From Actinomycetota bacterium (lineage in GTDB: Bacteria > Actinomycetota > Acidimicrobiia > Acidimicrobiales > JAJPHE01): 64,000 nt of DNA. The stretch covers positions 1 to 64,000 of the forward strand of contig DAHUYE010000067.1 in the NCBI GenBank assembly GCA_027315345.1. Direction: 5' to 3'. Shown piece after piece: positions 14,467 through 24,126 of this stretch. The stretch's first letter is position 1, and every line of letters starts with the position of its first letter. The translations under genes were made by a program, and so were the position numbers. Under the pieces are notes generated by a model. The model ran no database searches and was not told where the DNA came from. It saw only the letters and a list, made by a program, of their open reading frames with translations.

Positions 14467-15624
14467 TTGAGATCCATCGACGCGCTGGACCCTGACTCGG
14501 GTGTGCGCCTGGCGGGGATACTCGACGCTGAGCCCACCGGGGCCGGGTTCCGCCTGCGGCGCCTGCCGGAGTGGACGCGCCATCAGCTTCTCGATCCGGC
14601 CCTGGCCTTCGTGGCCTCCATGCCCTCCGGGGCCCGGCTGGAGATGACCACCGACTCCACGGTCATCGAGGTGGATGCCCTGCTCACCATGCTGCAGATG
14701 GGGGACCAGTCCCTGCGGCCGGCGTCCTTCGATCTGGTGGTGGATGGCCAGGTGGTTGGCAGCACCGAGTTCCTGGAGGGTCGCATCCTGCGGATGGACC
14801 CGGTCACGCAGGCCGTCTCAGTGGAAAGGGGCCCGGCCGTCACCATCCGCTTCGACGGGCTGCCGGCCGGGTCCAAACACGTGGAACTGTGGCTGGCTCA
14901 AGGGGCCTCGTTCGAGTTGAGGGATTTGCGGGTGGATGAAGCCGCTCTGGTAGGGCCCCCGCCTCCAGCCACCGGCCCCCGCTGGGTCCACTACGGCAGC
15001 TCCATCAGCCATTGCGTCGAGGCCGACCGCCCCACCGGCGCCTGGCCGGCCGTGGCGGCCCGCCTATGCGGGGCGGACCTGATGAGCCTCGGGTTGGCCG
15101 GCCAGTGCCAACTCGACCAGTGGGTGGCCAGAACTATCCGGGACCTCGACATCGATCTCATCAGCCTCAAGCTCGGCATCAACGTCGTCAATGGGGACAC
15201 CATGAGGGAGCGAGCCTTCCTTTCCGCCGTGCAGGGCTTCCTGGACACCGTGCGGGACGGGCACCCCGACCTGCCGCTCCTGGTGATCACCCCCATCATC
15301 TGCCCGGTGGCCGAGGACCACCCCGGTCCCACTCTGCAGGGTCGGGATGGTCAGGTCTTCGTCCGGCCCCGGCCACCGGAACTTTCCCTGGGCGCTCTCA
15401 GCCTGACCCGCATCCGGCACCTCTTGAGCGAGGTCGTGCACCGCCGGCAGGCCGAGGGTGATCCCGAGGTGCACCTGCTCGACGGCCTGGAGTTGTTCGG
15501 GCCCGCGGACACCGCCGATCTGCCTGACGGCCTGCACCCCAACTCGGCCGGATACCGGCGGATGGGCGAGCGCTTCGCCGCCCTGGCCTTCGGCCCGGGC
15601 GGCCCGTTCCACCGGACCGCCTGA
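14467..15624 (+). CDS. SGNH/GDSL-type hydrolase
   Basis: A 385-residue two-domain protein. Residues about 1-160 form a beta-rich N-terminal domain like those preceding SGNH esterase domains. The catalytic domain begins at WVHYGSSISHC (nucleophile Ser in the GSS variant of GDS), continues with the Gly of SLGLAG, an LGIN block with Asn, and ends with DGLHPNSAGY carrying the Asp and His. This order is diagnostic of SGNH hydrolases acting on acyl or acetyl esters, often of carbohydrates. TTG 14467 follows GGGGAG by about 5 nt. No signal peptide. Convergent with the transporter fusion gene. Confidence 0.85.
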   Translation: MRSIDALDPDSGVRLAGILDAEPTGAGFRLRRLPEWTRHQLLDPALAFVASMPSGARLEMTTDSTVIEVDALLTMLQMGDQSLRPASFDLVVDGQVVGSTEFLEGRILRMDPVTQAVSVERGPAVTIRFDGLPAGSKHVELWLAQGASFELRDLRVDEAALVGPPPPATGPRWVHYGSSISHCVEADRPTGAWPAVAARLCGADLMSLGLAGQCQLDQWVARTIRDLDIDLISLKLGINVVNGDTMRERAFLSAVQGFLDTVRDGHPDLPLLVITPIICPVAEDHPGPTLQGRDGQVFVRPRPPELSLGALSLTRIRHLLSEVVHRRQAEGDPEVHLLDGLELFGPADTADLPDGLHPNSAGYRRMGERFAALAFGPGGPFHRTA

Positions 15625-15634
15625 CGGCCGGTAT

Positions 15635-18600
15635 TCAGCCCCGGTCGGTCCGGGCCGTCCCCTTCCGGGCTGGAACGGTGCGGGCGGTAGCTCCGGCATC
15701 GGCGGCCTTGGGCGCCCGCTTGACCCCACCCGAGCGTTTGGCGGCCCCGGTCCGCTGGGCCGCCGCCGTTGACCGTTTGACCGCCCCGGCCGGCTTCACC
15801 GCCGTCTTGCGGACCGGTGCCTTGGTCGCCTTGCGCGCCAGCTTCCTGACCGTCCTTCCGGCCAGGGAACCGGAGCGGGTGACGGCCGCTTCGTTGTCCC
15901 CCAGGTACGACGCCACCACCTGGGGGTGGCGGATGACTTCGCCGGGCCGGCCCTCGGTGATGACGGTACCGAGCTCGAGGGCGATCATCTTGTCCGAGAC
16001 CGCCGTGACCAGGGGCATGTCGTGCTCGATGATGAGCAGGCTGCAGCCGGTCTCCTCCTGGATGCGCACCAGGAGGGGGCCCAGAGCTTCGGTCTCCCGC
16101 TGGGCGATGCCCGAGCTGGGCTCGTCCAGGATCAGGACCGATGGGCGGTGGGCGATGGACATGGCCAGGTCGACGATGCGGCGGCTGCCGGTGGAGAGTT
16201 CCCCCACGAACTTGTTCCGGAAGGCCTCCAAGCCGAGCAGCGCCGTCAGCTCCTCGACCTTGTCCTTGATCAGGTCCTCCTCCTCGGCCACGGCGGGCAG
16301 GCAGAGGGCCGAGGCCAGCGGATCCCGGAACTCCAGGTGACGTTCCAGAGCGACGCTGATGCACTCCTCCACGGTCAGGGAGGGGAACAGCCTGGCGTCC
16401 TGGAAGCTGCGGCCCAGGCCGGCCCAGCTGCGACGGTCGGCTGACCAGGAGGTCACGTTTTTGGCCTGCAGGGCGATGGTGCCGGAATCGGGGCTCAGGA
16501 AACCAGAGATGAGATCGAAGATGGTCGTCTTACCAGCCCCGTTGGGCCCGATGAGGCCGAGGATCTCTCCCCGGTGCAGGCTGAAGCTGACCGAGTTGAC
16601 GGCGGCTATGCCGCCGAAGTGCTTGGAGACATTGGTCAGCTCCAGCAGAGTGGGGCGCTGCTCGATCTGCTCCAACGGCGTGGTCCGGGCCACGGCCACC
16701 CCGCTGCGGGCCACGGGAGCGTTGCCGCTCACCTCCCCTCCCTTGGAGCCCTCCAGGAAGACCGAGCGCAAGATGTCCTCCCGGCCCAGCAGGTCGGCGG
16801 TCGGACCGGTAAAGCGCACCTCGCCCTTCTCCATGAACACGGCCCGGTCGGCCAGGGTCAGGGCGACGTTGACGGACTGCTCGACTATCACGATGGTCGT
16901 GCCGGCGGCGTGGATGGCCCGGACGATCTCGATCAGCCGGCCCACGATGGTGGGGGCCAGGCCGAGGCTCAACTCATCGATCAGGAGCAACCGGGGCTTG
17001 GAGATGAAGGCCATGCCCAGCCCCAGCATCTGCTGCTCGCCTCCGGAGAGGTTGCCCGCCAGCTGGTCCCATCGATCCCGCAGGACCGGAAAGTACTCGA
17101 GGACCTGCTCGGTGGCGGCCTTCACATGGGCCGGGTCCCGCCGCTTGTACGACCATCCGGCCAGGCGCAGACACTCGGCCACGGTGAGGGTGGGAAAGAC
17201 ACTGCGTCCTCCGGGCATCTGAACGATCCCGGCCGCCACCGCTTTGCGCGGATCGGCATAGGTGACATCGGCGCCGTCGAAAAAGATGGCCCCGGCGCTG
17301 GCCTGGATCAGCCCGGAGATGGCCTTGAGGAGGGTCGACTTACCGGCTCCGTTGGTGCCGAGCAAGGCGACTATCTCCCCCTCCCGGACCTCGAGGTCGA
17401 CGCCGAAGAGGACCTGAACCGAGTCATAGGCGACATCGATGCCCGTGCAGAGCAGAAGGGAACGGTCACCGGCGTCCAGGCGCTGACGCCGCAGCTCGGC
17501 GCCCACGCCCAGGAGCCGGAAGGCGCTGGATACGTCGTTGGCAGTGAAGCGGGCGGAGGAATAGACGACGGCCGAAGCGATGAGCCAGAAGGGGACGAGC
17601 ACTCCGATGCCGGCCCGGATCCCGTCCCGGTCGGAGACGGAGGAAAGGCCGGTGAAGAAGAAGAGGAGGACCACCCCGATGACCAGGAACAGAGCCCCGA
17701 AGCTGAAGCCGAGGGTCCGGACCCGGGCCGGGATGACCAGGGACAGGACGGCGTAGTACGAGGGGTAGAAGGTGCCGATGGCGAAGCTGGTGATCATCCC
17801 CAACAGCACGGTGAGCCACAGGGCCGGGCTGAGGGCCACCAGCAGGAGCCCCACACCGGTGGCGGCCAGTGCGTAGGAAGCCCGCCGGACGGGTTCGCCC
17901 ATGCTCTGCGTGAACCACTTGGACGCCCAGCGACCGCCCATCAGGACTCCGACAAAGGTGGCGGCGGCGTCGGCACTGCCGATCACTCCCCGGCCGAAGG
18001 GGGCGACGTGGAAGGCCCGCTGGAGGAACAGCGGCAGGTAGGCGGCCAAAGGCACCACGCCGGCCCCGAGGAAGGCGGTCCCGATGAACTGGCGCTTGAG
18101 AGTGGGCACGTTCCAGAGGATGCGGGCCGCCTCCCGGAACGGCACCGGGTCCTCCGCCTTGATCTCGTCGGCGGCCTCGGCGTTGTCGGTCTGGCCCCTG
18201 ACCGGCTCGGGCAGCCGGGCGGCGAAGATGACCGTGATGATGATCGGGATGATCAGGACGTAAAAGGCGCCCCGCCAGCCGAAGAGGGTGGCCATGACCC
18301 CGGCCACGATGTTGCCGAAGATGGCGCCGACGTAGACGGCGTTGGCGTGGGTGGCGTAGACCGGAGCTCGGCGGTCGGGGGGGTAGTAATCCGACAGCAA
18401 AGAGTTGTGGATCGGCCCGTTGGCGATGAGACCGAGACCGTTGCCCAACCGGACCACGGTGAGGAGGGCCACAGCGCCGACCACGCCGGTCAGGAAGGAG
18501 AACAGTCCGGCCAGGATCCCGGAGATGATCACCAGGGGAACCCGGCGGATGCGGTCGGCCAGGTAGCCGACCGGGATGGCGGCCAGGATGAGCAGGGAAG

Positions 18601-18796
18601 TGTTGGCCGTTATGAGGGCTATGAACTTCTGATCGGTGAGATGGAAGCTGTGTTCGATGTTGGGGGCCAGCACGCCGAAGGCAGCCGTATCGAACTCGTC
18701 GAAGAAATAGAGCAGCGACAGAACGACCAGGGCGAAGATGGCCGTTCCGCCGGTGTCCCGGTAGAACTTGTTGCGCAACAGCGTGAGCGGGTTCAT
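15635..18796 (-). CDS. MFS transporter fused to LivF- and LivG-type ABC ATPases
   Basis: A 1053-residue fusion. Residues about 1-430 are a 12-helix major facilitator domain with the loop motif GYLADRIRRVP. Residues about 450-690 are a LivF-type ATPase: Walker A GTNGAGKS (Lys near 486), signature LSGGEQQ near 585, Walker B LLLIDELSLG. Residues about 715-965 are a LivG-type ATPase: Walker A GPNGAGKT (Lys near 756), signature in the variant form LSTGSRR, Walker B VLILDEPSSG. The last 85 residues are an Ala/Lys/Arg-rich tail. The start overlaps the LivHM stop by 4 nt (ATGA). The ATPases should power the LivHM permease encoded upstream; the job of the MFS part is unknown. Similar fusions occur in other actinobacterial annotations. 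No sign of frameshift. Confidence 0.92.
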   Translation of the reverse strand: MNPLTLLRNKFYRDTGGTAIFALVVLSLLYFFDEFDTAAFGVLAPNIEHSFHLTDQKFIALITANTSLLILAAIPVGYLADRIRRVPLVIISGILAGLFSFLTGVVGAVALLTVVRLGNGLGLIANGPIHNSLLSDYYPPDRRAPVYATHANAVYVGAIFGNIVAGVMATLFGWRGAFYVLIIPIIITVIFAARLPEPVRGQTDNAEAADEIKAEDPVPFREAARILWNVPTLKRQFIGTAFLGAGVVPLAAYLPLFLQRAFHVAPFGRGVIGSADAAATFVGVLMGGRWASKWFTQSMGEPVRRASYALAATGVGLLLVALSPALWLTVLLGMITSFAIGTFYPSYYAVLSLVIPARVRTLGFSFGALFLVIGVVLLFFFTGLSSVSDRDGIRAGIGVLVPFWLIASAVVYSSARFTANDVSSAFRLLGVGAELRRQRLDAGDRSLLLCTGIDVAYDSVQVLFGVDLEVREGEIVALLGTNGAGKSTLLKAISGLIQASAGAIFFDGADVTYADPRKAVAAGIVQMPGGRSVFPTLTVAECLRLAGWSYKRRDPAHVKAATEQVLEYFPVLRDRWDQLAGNLSGGEQQMLGLGMAFISKPRLLLIDELSLGLAPTIVGRLIEIVRAIHAAGTTIVIVEQSVNVALTLADRAVFMEKGEVRFTGPTADLLGREDILRSVFLEGSKGGEVSGNAPVARSGVAVARTTPLEQIEQRPTLLELTNVSKHFGGIAAVNSVSFSLHRGEILGLIGPNGAGKTTIFDLISGFLSPDSGTIALQAKNVTSWSADRRSWAGLGRSFQDARLFPSLTVEECISVALERHLEFRDPLASALCLPAVAEEEDLIKDKVEELTALLGLEAFRNKFVGELSTGSRRIVDLAMSIAHRPSVLILDEPSSGIAQRETEALGPLLVRIQEETGCSLLIIEHDMPLVTAVSDKMIALELGTVITEGRPGEVIRHPQVVASYLGDNEAAVTRSGSLAGRTVRKLARKATKAPVRKTAVKPAGAVKRSTAAAQRTGAAKRSGGVKRAPKAADAGATARTVPARKGTARTDRG

Positions 18797-21024
18797 ACGC
18801 CCACCACTTCTTGTTCCCCGACCACGGCCAGCCGGTCGGCTTCCCCGGATACGTTCACGGCCTTGATCAGGAACTCGTGATCCTCTTCCGGTTCGTCCGG
18901 AGCCCGTTGGTCAGCCACCAGGCTGGCCACGATGATTCCCCGTCGGGTAGCCACCTGGCGGAGGATGCCGTCCCTGATCCCATAGAAGATCTGGGCCAGT
19001 CCGCCCGGGAAGATAAGTAGCAGGATCAGGGCGCCCAGCCCGCTGGCCAGAAGCTGGAAGGCGGGGCTGAGGTCGCTGTACTGCAGGACACCGTAGAAAG
19101 CAGTGCCGAGCAGCGCCCCGGGAAGGGAGGTGACCCCGCCGATGACCACGATGATGAGCAGGGTCAGGCTGAGTTCGGGAGGGAAGGACTCGGTCGGGGT
19201 CGATCCCTGGTAGTAGGCGAACATGGCGCCGGCCACGGCGGCCCAGAACCCGGAGATGGCGAAGGCCCACAGCTTGGCCTTGGAGGGGGAGACGCCGAAG
19301 GCCTGGGCGCCTTTCTGGTTGTCGCGCAGGCCGACGAGGACCCGCCCGAACCGGCTCCGCCGAAGCCCGCGAGCGGAGATCACGGCCAGGGCCAGTACCA
19401 CCAGGCTGGCGTAGTAGAAGGTCCGGTCGCCCACCAGGCTGTAGACCCCGTAGAGGATGGGCCGGTTGATGGCCTGGGTTTCCGGGGCCAGGAGGGAGCC
19501 GAAGTAGCTGGGGGACAGGAAGTAGTCCTGCATGGTGATGGCGAAACCGAGAGTGGTGACGGCCAGGTAGAGCCCCCGTATGCGCAGGGCCGGCAGGCCG
19601 ATCACGACGGCCACCAGGGCGCCGGCCAAGCCGGAGATGACCAGGGTCAGGAAGAAGTCCATATTGTGCCGGGCGGCCAGGTTTCCGGCCAGGCCGGCCC
19701 CGACCGCGGCCAGACCCCACTGGCCGAGGGAGATCTGGCCGGCCCACCCGGTCAGGATGACCAGTGACACGGCCACGATCCCGTAGATGACCACGGCCGA
19801 TGACAGGATCTGCTGGGTGGAGGAGAGGAGGTTGTAGCCGAAGACGAGTAGAAGCAGGGTCGCCAATCCGAGCCCGAACCGGCCCCATTGGACCTCGGGC
19901 AAGTTCTTCAGTTCAGGGGGGATGGGCCGGAACTCCTGGCTGTTGGACCAGGTGGACAGGCCGGTGTCCTCCCCTCTCGACAGCTGGTTGCGCTGGAAGA
20001 GCATGAAAGCCAAAATGATCGGGAGGATCACGGCGGCCGAGACGGTTGGGTCGCGGGAGAAGTAGTAGATGGTCTGGTCCAGGATGCCGAGGGCCAGACC
20101 GGCGAAGAGGGCCACACCGAAGCTCTCCATCCGGGCGATCACGGCCGCGGCCAAGCCGTACAGGAGAATGACCGGGCCCACGAAGGTTCCGATAGGCAGC
20201 CCGATGATGGGCACCCGCAGGAAGATGGCCAGGGCGGACAGGGCTGCAGCCAGGGCCCAGACCACGGTGGAGATTCTCTTGACCGGTATTCCCAGCAGGG
20301 CGGCCCGGTCGGAGTTCTCCGCCGTCGCCCGTACGGCTATCCCTATGTCGGTGAACCGGAAGAAGGCGGCCAGGCCGACCATCACCAGCAGCACAACCAC
20401 GGCGGCCACGATGGAGTTGGCATCGAGCCGGAAATGCCCGATGGTGAACTGGAGGCTGGAGAACGGTGTCTTGGGTGGGGCCGGGCTGATCAGGAACCCG
20501 GCTCCCATCCACTTGGGCATGTAGAGCTGAACAGCCGAGAAGATGAGGGCCAGGCCGATGGTGGCCACCGACAGGACCAGGCGGGACGCTTTGGCAAAGC
20601 GCCGGATGATCAGGAAGTCGATCACCACCCCGGCCAGGATGCCGGAGCCCAGGGCGATGATCAGCGCCACCAGGTAGGGCACGTGGTCGACCTTGATGAG
20701 GAGGACTCCGAGAACTCCCGAGGTCGCCCCCATCTCGGCCTGGGCGAAGTTGATGATGCGGTTGGCCCGGTAGATGAGGATCAACCCGAAGGCCAGTAAG
20801 GCGTAGAGCAGCCCGATGATCCCGCCGTAGACGAATATCCCGACCGGCGGCTCGTTGTTGCGGAGCACCAGGCCCAGGACGAGGCAGAGGCCGCCGATCC
20901 CCACCACCACCTTGGCCACTCCGCCGCTGAACCGGCCCTTCCAGAGCCGCTGGGCCTGCTCCGCCGCCGGGGAACGGGTCAGCCGCCCGGCGGCATTACG
21001 CAGGGCGGCGGCGCTAACAGCCAT
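18793..21024 (-). CDS. LivH-LivM fused branched-chain-type ABC permease
   Basis: A 743-residue membrane protein combining the two permease subunits that are usually separate. The LivH half (about 60-350) has the typical GLLYALLAFGLILIYRANRI ... INFAQAEMG segment and the ENSDRAALLGIP coupling loop. The LivM half (about 385-690) has the segment TGWAGQISLGQ, the LPALRIRGLYLAVTTLGFA stretch and the RDNQKGAQAFGV coupling loop, then the GSLPGALLG-type ending. About 50 extra residues at each end, the C-terminal one acidic, are cytoplasmic. It overlaps the binding-protein gene by about 11 nt and the ATPase fusion by 4 nt, so the three genes form one operon. Confidence 0.93.
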   Translation of the reverse strand: MAVSAAALRNAAGRLTRSPAAEQAQRLWKGRFSGGVAKVVVGIGGLCLVLGLVLRNNEPPVGIFVYGGIIGLLYALLAFGLILIYRANRIINFAQAEMGATSGVLGVLLIKVDHVPYLVALIIALGSGILAGVVIDFLIIRRFAKASRLVLSVATIGLALIFSAVQLYMPKWMGAGFLISPAPPKTPFSSLQFTIGHFRLDANSIVAAVVVLLVMVGLAAFFRFTDIGIAVRATAENSDRAALLGIPVKRISTVVWALAAALSALAIFLRVPIIGLPIGTFVGPVILLYGLAAAVIARMESFGVALFAGLALGILDQTIYYFSRDPTVSAAVILPIILAFMLFQRNQLSRGEDTGLSTWSNSQEFRPIPPELKNLPEVQWGRFGLGLATLLLLVFGYNLLSSTQQILSSAVVIYGIVAVSLVILTGWAGQISLGQWGLAAVGAGLAGNLAARHNMDFFLTLVISGLAGALVAVVIGLPALRIRGLYLAVTTLGFAITMQDYFLSPSYFGSLLAPETQAINRPILYGVYSLVGDRTFYYASLVVLALAVISARGLRRSRFGRVLVGLRDNQKGAQAFGVSPSKAKLWAFAISGFWAAVAGAMFAYYQGSTPTESFPPELSLTLLIIVVIGGVTSLPGALLGTAFYGVLQYSDLSPAFQLLASGLGALILLLIFPGGLAQIFYGIRDGILRQVATRRGIIVASLVADQRAPDEPEEDHEFLIKAVNVSGEADRLAVVGEQEVVGV

Positions 21025-22867
21025 TGGCCGAGGTGTCGAAGAAGAGTGCGTTGCCCGGCAGCTGGCCGGGGTCGTATCGTTCGCCCCCGTTCAGCGGGCA
21101 ATACGAGCCCGCCTTACCGTCGACCTCCGATGGCCGGGTGGCGCTCCAGTTGACCAGCCGGGCGTCCCGGAAGGCCGTCCAGGGGCTGGAACCGCCGAAG
21201 CCGATCTCATAGAGGGTCTGGTTGTGGGTCTTGGCCCATCCCCCGAACAGGGGCATGTTGAGAAGGCCCTGGTGGATGGAGGCCGGCGTCGGCTCGGGCC
21301 CGGCCTCCTGGAAGGCGGTGGCCATCAGGGAGAAGAAGGGGACCACGGCGTCCTCGGTGGCGTCCGGGGACCCCGAGGCGCCGGCGGCGGCGTACCACTG
21401 GTAGGACCAGCTCTGCTGGATGGGGGACGGAAGGGCCAGGTCGGAGAGCCCGAAGGCGTGCTGCCACTCACCGGTGGCGTACAGACGTCCCAGCACGTCG
21501 TAATCGATCAGGCCCACCCCGGCAATGAGATTTTCGGGAAAGTATCCCTGCTGCTGCATGGTGTTGGTCAGGAACACCGGGGCGATGGGATCACAGAAAC
21601 ACTCCACGGTCGTGATCTTGTTCTGGATGAGCTGTTGGACGATGTTGTCCGACTGTTGCTGGGCGGTGGTGATGTCGGATTGGTAGGGCAGTTCCAGAAC
21701 GCCGCCCTTGGTATTGCACTCACCTCCAGTGACCAGGGACTTGAATATGTCGACGTACATCTTGTAGGTCGGGTCCCCGTCCGTCTCCGGGAAGAGGACG
21801 GCCAGCTTGCGTATGGGAGGCGCCGTCGGCGGGCTTCCCCAGCCCCGGGTCGTCTCCACGTCGGGGCCGGCCCACTTGACCGGCTTGTTGACCAGGTCCT
21901 TGCAGTACAGCTCGGCGTCGAAGCGGGCCTGTCTGGTCCCGTCCATCAGGATGCCGTAGAAGTAGGGGGCATTGGCCTCGTAGTACTGCTCGGGCTGCTC
22001 ACCGCCTCCCAGCTCGACGATATGCAGGGCGGACAGCTCATTGGCGAACTGGGCGGTTGCTCCGTTGCCGATGACGAAGGCCGGGTGCATGGCCGCGATG
22101 ACCTTGGCGTCGGCCACCTCACAGGCCGGATCGGGCGGGGTCAGGTTGCACTGGCTCTGGTAGTACGGGAAATTGCAGGGGCTCTGGTTGGTGGCTCCGT
22201 TGTTGGCCCCGCTGCCATCCAGGGGCACGAAGTGACGCCCGTAGAGGGAGAAGTACTTGTTGATCACGGTGTTGAAGGCCTGATCGGCCTCACAGGACTG
22301 CTCGGTGGTGGCGGCCAGGCCCTGAGTCTGCAGGATGGCGTTGACCTCGGCGTTCGACGATTCCTTGTAGACGACGTAGCGGATCTCGGTGGAGGTGACC
22401 CCGGTCATGGTCGACCCGCCGTTGTTACCGCCGTGCCAGACCGGGACGCAGGGGGGCATATACGGGTAGTTGGTCGGGCCCTTCTGGGCCCCGTTGGCGG
22501 CGCAGTCGCTCCGATCCACGCCGGCCGTGCCGGTCGACCCCCCCGTGCCGCCCACCCCCGAGGTGCCGCCCGAGGCCGAGACTCCTCCAACCGCGGATCC
22601 GGAGTTGGACGTGGACCCTGACGCCAGCGAGCCGGAAAGAGATGCACCGGAAGTGCTCGTCCCCCCGAGTCCCCCCGAACTGCCCGCCGCCGATGACCCG
22701 TTGGCCCCGGTTCCGTTGGCCGCTGCGCTCGAGCCGGTCCCGTACTGACCGGCGGTGGCGTTGACGGCCCCCCGCGAGGGCGCCAGGGCGATGACGATCA
22801 CCTGGACTGCGGCTAAGGCGATGAAGGGCAGATAGCGCCGCCCCAACGCACCTGGACTCGAGGCCAC
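21014..22867 (-). CDS. ABC transporter substrate-binding protein (LivJ-like)
   Basis: A 617-residue exported binding protein of the Leu/Ile/Val-type family. An N-terminal hydrophobic segment YLPFIALAAVQVIVIALA forms a signal or anchor; there is no lipobox Cys, so it may remain membrane-anchored. Residues about 40-120 are an unusually long Gly/Ser/Thr/Ala-rich linker. The periplasmic-binding fold follows, with many Cys residues that could form disulfides. The substrate is unknown; homologues bind amino acids, amides or aromatic acids. It is the first gene of the importer operon. A TAACTT -10-like box lies on the minus strand at 22887-22882, and GGGGG precedes the GTG start. Confidence 0.88.
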   Translation of the reverse strand: MASSPGALGRRYLPFIALAAVQVIVIALAPSRGAVNATAGQYGTGSSAAANGTGANGSSAAGSSGGLGGTSTSGASLSGSLASGSTSNSGSAVGGVSASGGTSGVGGTGGSTGTAGVDRSDCAANGAQKGPTNYPYMPPCVPVWHGGNNGGSTMTGVTSTEIRYVVYKESSNAEVNAILQTQGLAATTEQSCEADQAFNTVINKYFSLYGRHFVPLDGSGANNGATNQSPCNFPYYQSQCNLTPPDPACEVADAKVIAAMHPAFVIGNGATAQFANELSALHIVELGGGEQPEQYYEANAPYFYGILMDGTRQARFDAELYCKDLVNKPVKWAGPDVETTRGWGSPPTAPPIRKLAVLFPETDGDPTYKMYVDIFKSLVTGGECNTKGGVLELPYQSDITTAQQQSDNIVQQLIQNKITTVECFCDPIAPVFLTNTMQQQGYFPENLIAGVGLIDYDVLGRLYATGEWQHAFGLSDLALPSPIQQSWSYQWYAAAGASGSPDATEDAVVPFFSLMATAFQEAGPEPTPASIHQGLLNMPLFGGWAKTHNQTLYEIGFGGSSPWTAFRDARLVNWSATRPSEVDGKAGSYCPLNGGERYDPGQLPGNALFFDTSANGC

Positions 22868-22926: not shown

Positions 22927-24126
22927 GTGTCATTTGTCTCATCGGGGGTCCGCCCGTCGGCCAATCTGTGGCCCGTGGGCCGCCTCCGGATGATGCTGCT
23001 GTGCGCCGGGGCGGCGGGGGCTGTAGCCGCCGGCGTCTCCGACCCGGGCCGGGCTCGGGCCGCCGCCGGCCAGGACTACCCCGCCTTCGTCCTGGTGGCC
23101 GGCCTGCTCCTGATCGGGCTGGTCGCCCAGCAAGATGGTCTGTTCGAGGCGGCCGGTCGATGGCTGTCGCTTCGGTTCCGGTCCGACGGCCTGCTGCTGG
23201 TGATGGCCATGGTCCTGATCGGTGTGGTGACCGCCACCCTGAATCTGGATACCTCGGTGGCCTTCCTGACTCCGGTGCTGGTCCAGGCCGGCCGGCAGCG
23301 GCCCGCCCTGGCGTCCCCTCTGCTCTATGGCTGTGTCCTGCTCTCCAACGCCGGCTCCCTGCTCCTGCCCGGCTCCAATCTCACCAATCTCATTGTCCTG
23401 GGCCCCCTGCACATCTCAGGTTTCGTCTTTCTCCAGCGGATGGCGCTGCCCTGGGTGATGGCGCTGGCTGTCACCGGCGTTGGCGTCTGGTGGTGGGGCA
23501 GCCGGGCGGGTCGGGCGCCCGCCGGTGATGCCCGCGATGCGGCCGGGATCGGTCCGGGTCCAGGCCAGGGACCACTCCGGGCCGCATCCGGTGTGGTGGG
23601 TATAGCCGGGGCCATCGCCATGGTCCTGGCGCTCCGGTCCCCAGCCGTCCCGGTCCTGATCCTGGGAGTGGTGCTGGTCGGGGGCCGACTGGCCCGGCGG
23701 GGGGCGGCCTCGGGGGCGGTGCTGGAGGTCCTGGACCTGCCCGTACTCATCGGCCTACTGGGAGTGGCCGTCGGGCTGGGCACGGTGGCTCGTTCCTGGC
23801 TGGGCCCTACCCGGTTGATGGGCCACCTCGATTCCTGGGCGTCGGCCGGCCTGGCGGCGGCGGCCACGGTCGTGGTCAACAACCTCCCGGCCGCCTCTTT
23901 CCTGGGGGCCGGCCAACTGCTTCATCCCTATTCCGTGCTGGTCGGGCTCGATCTCGGCCCGAACCTCATGGTGTCGGGCTCGCTGGCCTGGATCATCTGG
24001 CTGCGCACGGCCCGCCAGGCCGGGGCCCGTCCGTCGATTGCCCGGGCGGTCCGCCTCGGGGCGGCCACCGCCCCCGTGGCCATGGCGGCCGCCGTCCTCA
24101 TGCTCACGGTCATCGGGCCCTCCTGA
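22927..24126 (+). CDS. ArsB/ion-transporter-superfamily permease
   Basis: A 399-residue polytopic membrane protein with about ten hydrophobic segments. Two family-typical stretches stand out: TATLNLDTSVAFLTPVLV with SNAGSLLLPGSNLTNLIVLG in the first half, and VVNNLPAASFLGAG with GPNLMVSGSLAWIIW in the second. These are the paired Asn/Asp and GSN/NLP-type motifs of the ArsB/CitMHS ion-transporter superfamily. No arsenic-resistance genes are nearby, so arsenite export is not assumed; anion or carboxylate transport is equally possible. GTG 22927 sits close to a GGGGAGG run; ATG 22990 is an alternative start. Divergent from the ABC operon, with 59 bp between the start codons. Confidence 0.75.
   Translation: MSFVSSGVRPSANLWPVGRLRMMLLCAGAAGAVAAGVSDPGRARAAAGQDYPAFVLVAGLLLIGLVAQQDGLFEAAGRWLSLRFRSDGLLLVMAMVLIGVVTATLNLDTSVAFLTPVLVQAGRQRPALASPLLYGCVLLSNAGSLLLPGSNLTNLIVLGPLHISGFVFLQRMALPWVMALAVTGVGVWWWGSRAGRAPAGDARDAAGIGPGPGQGPLRAASGVVGIAGAIAMVLALRSPAVPVLILGVVLVGGRLARRGAASGAVLEVLDLPVLIGLLGVAVGLGTVARSWLGPTRLMGHLDSWASAGLAAAATVVVNNLPAASFLGAGQLLHPYSVLVGLDLGPNLMVSGSLAWIIWLRTARQAGARPSIARAVRLGAATAPVAMAAAVLMLTVIGPS

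Follow-up and report, generated by a model that had tools for sequence, protein, structure and literature searches.

Primary (ATP-driven) and secondary (gradient-driven) transporters are usually regarded as separate kinds of machine, and in ABC importers of the LIV type the ATPases are normally docked by LivHM. Among secondary carriers, the Spinster members studied so far are proton-coupled (PMC9440201). In HnSpns, D41 of TM1 and R122 and E129 of TM4 form a proton network with E129 as its master switch, R42 is the putative substrate arginine, and D87, R91 and D142 constitute the charge relay of motif A (PMC9440201; PMC13192786). Fusions of MFS carriers to the regulatory domains CBS, CNBD, PAS and UspA have been described (PMC10710835 (review)). 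Searches of the open PMC literature came upon no MFS carrier joined to ABC ATPases, and within that literature the statement of the initial annotation that no experimental account is known holds. The window analyzed here, a stretch of 64,000 nucleotides from an Actinomycetota bacterium (contig DAHUYE010000067.1), harbours an operon that, judged by its sequence, encodes a complete LIV/HAAT-type ABC importer (binding protein, LivHM and LivF-LivG) plus a full MFS carrier placed before LivF.

Gene layout and protein domains of the operon

The genes are read from the minus strand in the order binding protein, LivHM and MFS-LivF-LivG (Table 1). LivHM overlaps the MFS-LivF-LivG gene by 4 bases (ATGA) and the binding-protein gene by 11 bases; the latter starts with GTG, preceded by a GGGGGT stretch. 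Both neighbouring genes, coding for a GDSL hydrolase (14467-15624) and a CitMHS/ArsB-like carrier (22927-24126), are located on the opposite strand, so that the operon comprises three genes. With three open reading frames in place and overlapping, the genuine operon claimed in the initial annotation was confirmed.

Table 1 Features of the operon (positions in the window)
Feature	Position	Strand	Basis
MFS-LivF-LivG chain, 1053 aa	15635..18796	-	ORF list, Pfam/NCBIfam domains, AlphaFold2 model
LivH-LivM fused permease, 743 aa, two BPD_transp_2 domains	18793..21024	-	ORF list, domain matches
Type I substrate-binding protein, 617 aa, N-terminal hydrophobic segment and long Gly/Ser linker	21014..22867	-	ORF list, predicted fold
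Spinster-like MFS module, residues 1-442, 12 TM helices	17471..18796	-	HnSpns 6e8j profile match, residue tables, model
Continuous helix 401-442, TM12 and cytoplasmic connector into LivF, contains D421	17471..17596	-	Model, alignment
LivF-type ATPase domain, residues 446-680; Walker A from residue 480, LSGGE, Walker B IDE	16757..17461	-	
LivG-type ATPase domain, residues 716-967; GPNGAGKTT, LSTGS signature, LDEP, EHD	15896..16651	-	
LivF-LivG linker, disordered	residues 681-704 of the 1053-aa chain	-	Model
Lys/Ala/Pro-rich disordered tail	residues 968-1053 of the chain, window 15635-15895	-	Sequence, model

Pfam and NCBIfam matches place MFS_1 at residues 26-295 of the third product, a LivF-like ABC_tran domain at 451-669 and a LivG-like one at 717-966, all in one reading frame, and likewise show LivH and LivM domains, both BPD_transp_2, within the permease chain. 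Walker A, Walker B and signature motifs of LivF- and LivG-type ATPases are present, and the UrtE model was matched above its cut-off. In an AlphaFold2 model of the whole chain (pLDDT 82.5, pTM 0.68) the 12 helices of the MFS are complete, both ATPase domains are formed and the tail is disordered; the pTM makes the placement of the MFS relative to the ATPases only moderately certain. The best fold match of the ATPase pair in this model was 8wdb_D, the one-chain pair of DppABCD. The domains in a single frame and the model thus agree with the claim of one chain carrying a full MFS domain and two ATPases. Separate translation of LivF, named beforehand as a finding that would speak against the fusion, was rejected because no plausible internal start codon is present at the junction: the nearest in-frame start is a GTG at residue 431, which lacks an upstream purine-rich site. 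A sequencing or assembly chimera was rejected as well, since about 60 proteins of many independently assembled genomes show this architecture in a single frame and the fusion is also found in a complete Embleya genome. Lys/Ala/Pro-rich, histone-H1-like disordered tails at the LivG end were observed in the window chain and in the MFS-less L016:2946-4940.

Attempts to name the binding protein by sequence yielded no Pfam family and no match to solved structures. Its AlphaFold2 model (pLDDT 86, pTM 0.89) has the fold of a type I periplasmic binding protein, the class to which it belongs by fold only and not by sequence family. Among the bacterial structures matched by the model are binding proteins for leucine and for aromatic acids, 4ey3 being one example (TM 0.72 by target length); such matches to a predicted structure indicate the class of the protein and do not identify its ligand.

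Occurrence, arrangement and history of the fused family

The genome containing the window encodes seven MFS-LivF-LivG fusions, the one described here and six more (L009-L014), each beside a LivHM chain, as well as three sister systems without MFS, namely L016 (LivF-LivG) and L017 and L018 (LivHM-LivF-LivG as a single chain). This genome is rich in branched-chain-type importers, with 41 LivH/LivM-type domain hits, LivH and LivM being mostly fused. In the class, 296 genomes were sampled and 98 of them had matches to the MFS module (E below 1e-30); most of the frames listed had a length of 730-870 or >950 residues, which corresponds to MFS-LivF and MFS-LivF-LivG, and shorter stand-alone or contig-end frames were also present. 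A sample of the phylum gave matches in 18 of 296 genomes. Pseudomonadota (22 of 200 genomes matched) displayed stand-alone carriers at the loci examined, as did Chloroflexota (58 of 201), with the exception of genome G841, reached via the Chloroflexota set, which holds three fused MFS systems (L259-L261) that may stem from horizontal transfer or a mis-binned genome. The fusion is carried by MAGs of Acidimicrobiales, Frankiaceae and other Actinomycetota and by Embleya sp. NBC_00888, whose genome is complete and has MFS-LivF next to LivHM-LivG, in agreement with the expectation of similar fusions in other actinobacteria. A search aimed at the fusion by ATPase motifs mostly gave ordinary LivF/LivG proteins, only L099-L103 belonging to the clade.

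The architecture search and neighbour table proposed in the initial annotation revealed at least four arrangements: LivHM / MFS-F-G as in the window, LivHM / MFS-F / G (L061, L226, L247), MFS-F / LivHM-G (L080, L088, L250 and others) and MFS-F / LivHM / G (L193-L195). The MFS immediately precedes LivF in all of them, while LivG and LivHM vary in placement. Fusion to both ATPases therefore describes the window operon correctly but does not hold throughout; LivF is the constant partner, and LivG is often separate or fused to LivHM.

Phylogenetic analysis showed that the LivF domains of MFS-type systems form one well-supported clade, separate from other LivF domains, also those of the same genomes. 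A tree of the importer (LivF, LivG, LivH and LivM) was made with 106 systems: 86 with MFS, and 20 without it (14 LivF-LivG systems and 6 single-chain LivHM-LivF-LivG systems). Systems bearing the MFS occur on both sides of the root, and its presence and absence require 7 changes on this tree, at least 5 of which are forced by well-supported branches. The simplest reading is one early joining of the MFS followed by repeated losses (at least five) with the importer kept; regains through recombination may have occurred. As the first set of systems had been gathered via the MFS part, a second search used only LivF as query and covered 40 genomes of the order. It gave matches in 28 genomes, and of 42 systems read from the strongest matches 27 had the MFS and 15 did not.

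These losses bear on the option, raised in the initial annotation, that the MFS anchors the ATPases, taken here to mean that it merely holds them at the membrane or stabilises them there. Its position as a membrane domain N-terminal to LivF would suit an anchor, but LivHM normally docks the ATPases, LivF-LivG was kept each time the MFS was lost, and the conserved gate residues of the carrier (see below) would be superfluous for anchoring. This role is disfavoured and appears the least probable of those considered.

In a tree of the MFS modules the fused carriers group together, with L093, on a long branch, falling outside. The stand-alone carrier L188 is the sister of the window MFS among the rows of this tree, and L203, which likewise stands alone, scores high against the family profile; both apparently are carriers that left the fusion. 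Split homologues had been named in advance as evidence against the fusion. Stand-alone copies indeed exist, but the closest ones, L188 and L203, thus resemble escapes from it.

No recurrent catabolic genes that would point to a substrate were found around the fused systems. Several relatives, with or without MFS, harbour directly behind LivF-LivG a secreted family whose proteins have a signal at the N-terminus and a hydrophobic segment at the C-terminus (L219:2454-3509, L220:6274-7284, L070:6639-7598, L216:6616-7746, L222:2748-3773, L221:2-925, L230:6455-7552 and L210:2322-3104); the members scanned gave no Pfam match, and the family is absent from the window operon. In another subclade a conserved secreted or lipoprotein-like gene adjoins LivHM (L014:8592-9656, L079:10816-11916; homologues in L075, L076, L078, L081, L082 and L238), without a Pfam match in the two scanned.

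The carrier module and its junction with LivF

A profile of 14 MFS modules found HnSpns (6e8j) as best solved match (E 2.3e-52), followed by DgoT, Spns1 and Spns2, making the Spinster lipid/organic-anion carriers the nearest solved relatives. The window module has D36, T37, D81, R85, R116, L123 and D136 at the main sites. The motif A relay is present (D81, R85 and D136, corresponding to D87, R91 and D142 of HnSpns), as are the TM1 aspartate and TM4 arginine (D36 and R116, corresponding to D41 and R122). However, L123 stands where the proton-switch glutamate of TM4 (E129) is expected, and the module is therefore named Spinster-like rather than a canonical proton-coupled Spns carrier.

The same sites, in HnSpns numbering, were counted in four groups. 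The main branch (n = 63) consists of the MFS-LivF-LivG chains plus L061, L226 and L247, which have a separate LivG. Its members all keep D87, R91 and D142, and most keep R122 (56) and D41 (55); R42 is found in 25, D60 in 13 and E129 in 4. Among 24 other fused forms, most of which are MFS-LivF chains whose LivG lies elsewhere, R91 is retained in 24, D142 in 23, D87 in 17, R122 in 13, D41 and D60 in 9 each, and R42 and E129 in 2 each. Stand-alone relatives from Chloroflexota and Pseudomonadota (n = 24) all have D41, R91, R122 and D142, nearly all have R42 and E129 (23 each), and 22 have D60 and 22 D87. Another 13 stand-alone rows, mostly actinobacterial but including L200 from a Chloroflexota genome and L201-L202 from Neobacillus, carry Glu at the E129 site in 2 cases and Gln in 6. 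To judge from these residues, the cytoplasmic gate hardware is retained and the putative proton switch is gone in the fused carriers of the main branch. It was considered whether loss of the switch is specific to the fusion; this was rejected, as stand-alone actinobacterial relatives also lack the TM4 glutamate (often replaced by Gln). As the alignment indicates, the loss of this residue either predates the fusion or took place independently of it.

A secondary carrier with the usual proton coupling, for which the fusion would bring no more than co-expression and co-location, would be in line with the proton coupling of the Spinster members studied (PMC9440201) and with the D41 and R122 equivalents kept in 55/63 and 56/63 proteins. 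A master-switch glutamate in only 4/63 makes such coupling very unlikely, and co-expression needs no junction of fixed length.

At this junction, helix 401-442 of the AlphaFold2 model extends unbroken from TM12 and ends no more than four residues short of the first LivF strand. All 88 fused proteins compared have D421, and in 68 of them it lies 58 or 59 residues ahead of the Walker A motif of LivF, while the distance from the LivF to the LivG Walker A ranges from 253 to 320 residues without a preferred value. D421 has a counterpart in HnSpns and is thus not specific to the fusion. The connector between MFS and LivF is predicted to be one continuous rigid helix of fixed length, unlike the LivF-LivG linker.

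It could be speculated that the LivF-LivG cycle drives the MFS module via this helix, as an ATP-powered MFS carrier. A lost proton switch with the gates kept would fit, as would the fixed-length connector that is continuous in the model. To our knowledge there is no precedent for such a carrier; moreover, the stand-alone actinobacterial relatives also lack the switch, and the MFS part can either disappear or escape from the fusion. We consider this improbable. The wider proposal that the cycle uses the rigid TM12-LivF helix to drive or gate alternating access of the carrier lacking its proton switch is a similarly long shot. If true, a single pair of ATPases would work for two membrane transport units of different kinds, making the system a hybrid.

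Role of the carrier and comparison with known systems

Distances between MFS modules correlated with those between binding proteins in 33 complete systems (0.69 raw), and the correlation persisted after control for all the other domains (r 0.37, 0 of 500 shuffles as high), although partial Mantel tests are anti-conservative and distance correlations indirect. The second strongest value was that of MFS and LivF (0.27, 2 of 500 shuffles); LivH showed the same link with the binding protein (0.55), and LivF and LivG lacked it. In an earlier set of 23 systems the values for MFS and binding protein were 0.79 raw and 0.52 partial. This co-divergence favours a shared substrate, and with it the suggestion of the initial annotation that the MFS moves the same or a related substrate.

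The reading that we prefer, tentatively and at somewhat less than an even chance, is that a LIV/HAAT-type importer acquired a Spinster-type MFS carrier as a LivF module, which handles substrate and is mechanically tied to LivF. The carrier would still open and close on its cytoplasmic side, would not be driven through the usual proton switch, and may handle the substrate class of the binding protein, which would be organic and perhaps amphipathic. Kept next to the pump, it might act as a facilitator or exchanger or provide an exit path, its position or gating being tied to the LivF cycle. This is suggested by the constant MFS-LivF order, the fixed junction with its unbroken predicted helix, the motif A kept in 63/63, the TM4 glutamate in 4/63 and 2/24 fused carriers versus 23/24 stand-alone ones (Chloroflexota, Pseudomonadota), the co-divergence with the binding protein, the losses of the MFS with the importer kept, and the Spinster kinship. 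Against it, the glutamate was already replaced in stand-alone actinobacterial relatives, its loss thus not being caused by the fusion, and the other fused forms often lack the D41/R122 core (9/24 and 13/24), which fits a non-transporting role there. Indeed, the MFS may be a receptor-like accessory or regulatory membrane subunit that senses ligand, lipid or protons and modulates LivF via the connector helix. The incomplete core, the lost TM4 switch, the often lost periplasmic Asp (kept in 13/63), the fixed-length continuous helix and the joining of other MFS proteins to regulatory domains (PMC10710835) are consistent with this. We regard it as rather unlikely, though a serious alternative, in view of the complete motif A gate relay in 63/63, the persistence of the stand-alone copies L188 and L203 and the co-divergence with the binding protein.

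The fused proteins make up a large recurrent family, uncharacterised as far as the open PMC literature goes, that joins a primary and a secondary transporter by a conserved junction. With gates kept but the proton switch lost, how the MFS part is powered becomes a testable question. The natural carrier-less importers and the escaped carriers are ready controls for asking whether ATP hydrolysis can couple to an MFS carrier, and the family also allows one to ask why a pump needs an adjacent carrier.

Like LivJ/K-LivHMGF and UrtABCDE, the window system has LivH, LivM, LivG and LivF domains and a type I binding protein. It differs from these in the MFS at the N-terminus of LivF, in LivF and LivG following each other in one chain, in the fused LivHM and in a binding protein without Pfam match. 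With the Spinster carriers HnSpns, Spns1, Spns2 and MsSpns the MFS module shares 12 helices, the motif A relay, the TM1 Asp and the TM4 Arg, but the fused family does not keep the TM4 Glu, in most cases has lost the TM1 Arg and the TM2 Asp as well, and is joined to ATPases. DppABCD of Mycobacterium tuberculosis also has two ATPase domains in one chain, with the importer-type pairing seen in our model, but has no MFS part and a permease of a different class. As in the CBS, CNBD, PAS and UspA fusions (PMC10710835), a cytoplasmic partner is covalently added to an MFS carrier; in the window, however, this partner is the motor of another complete transporter.
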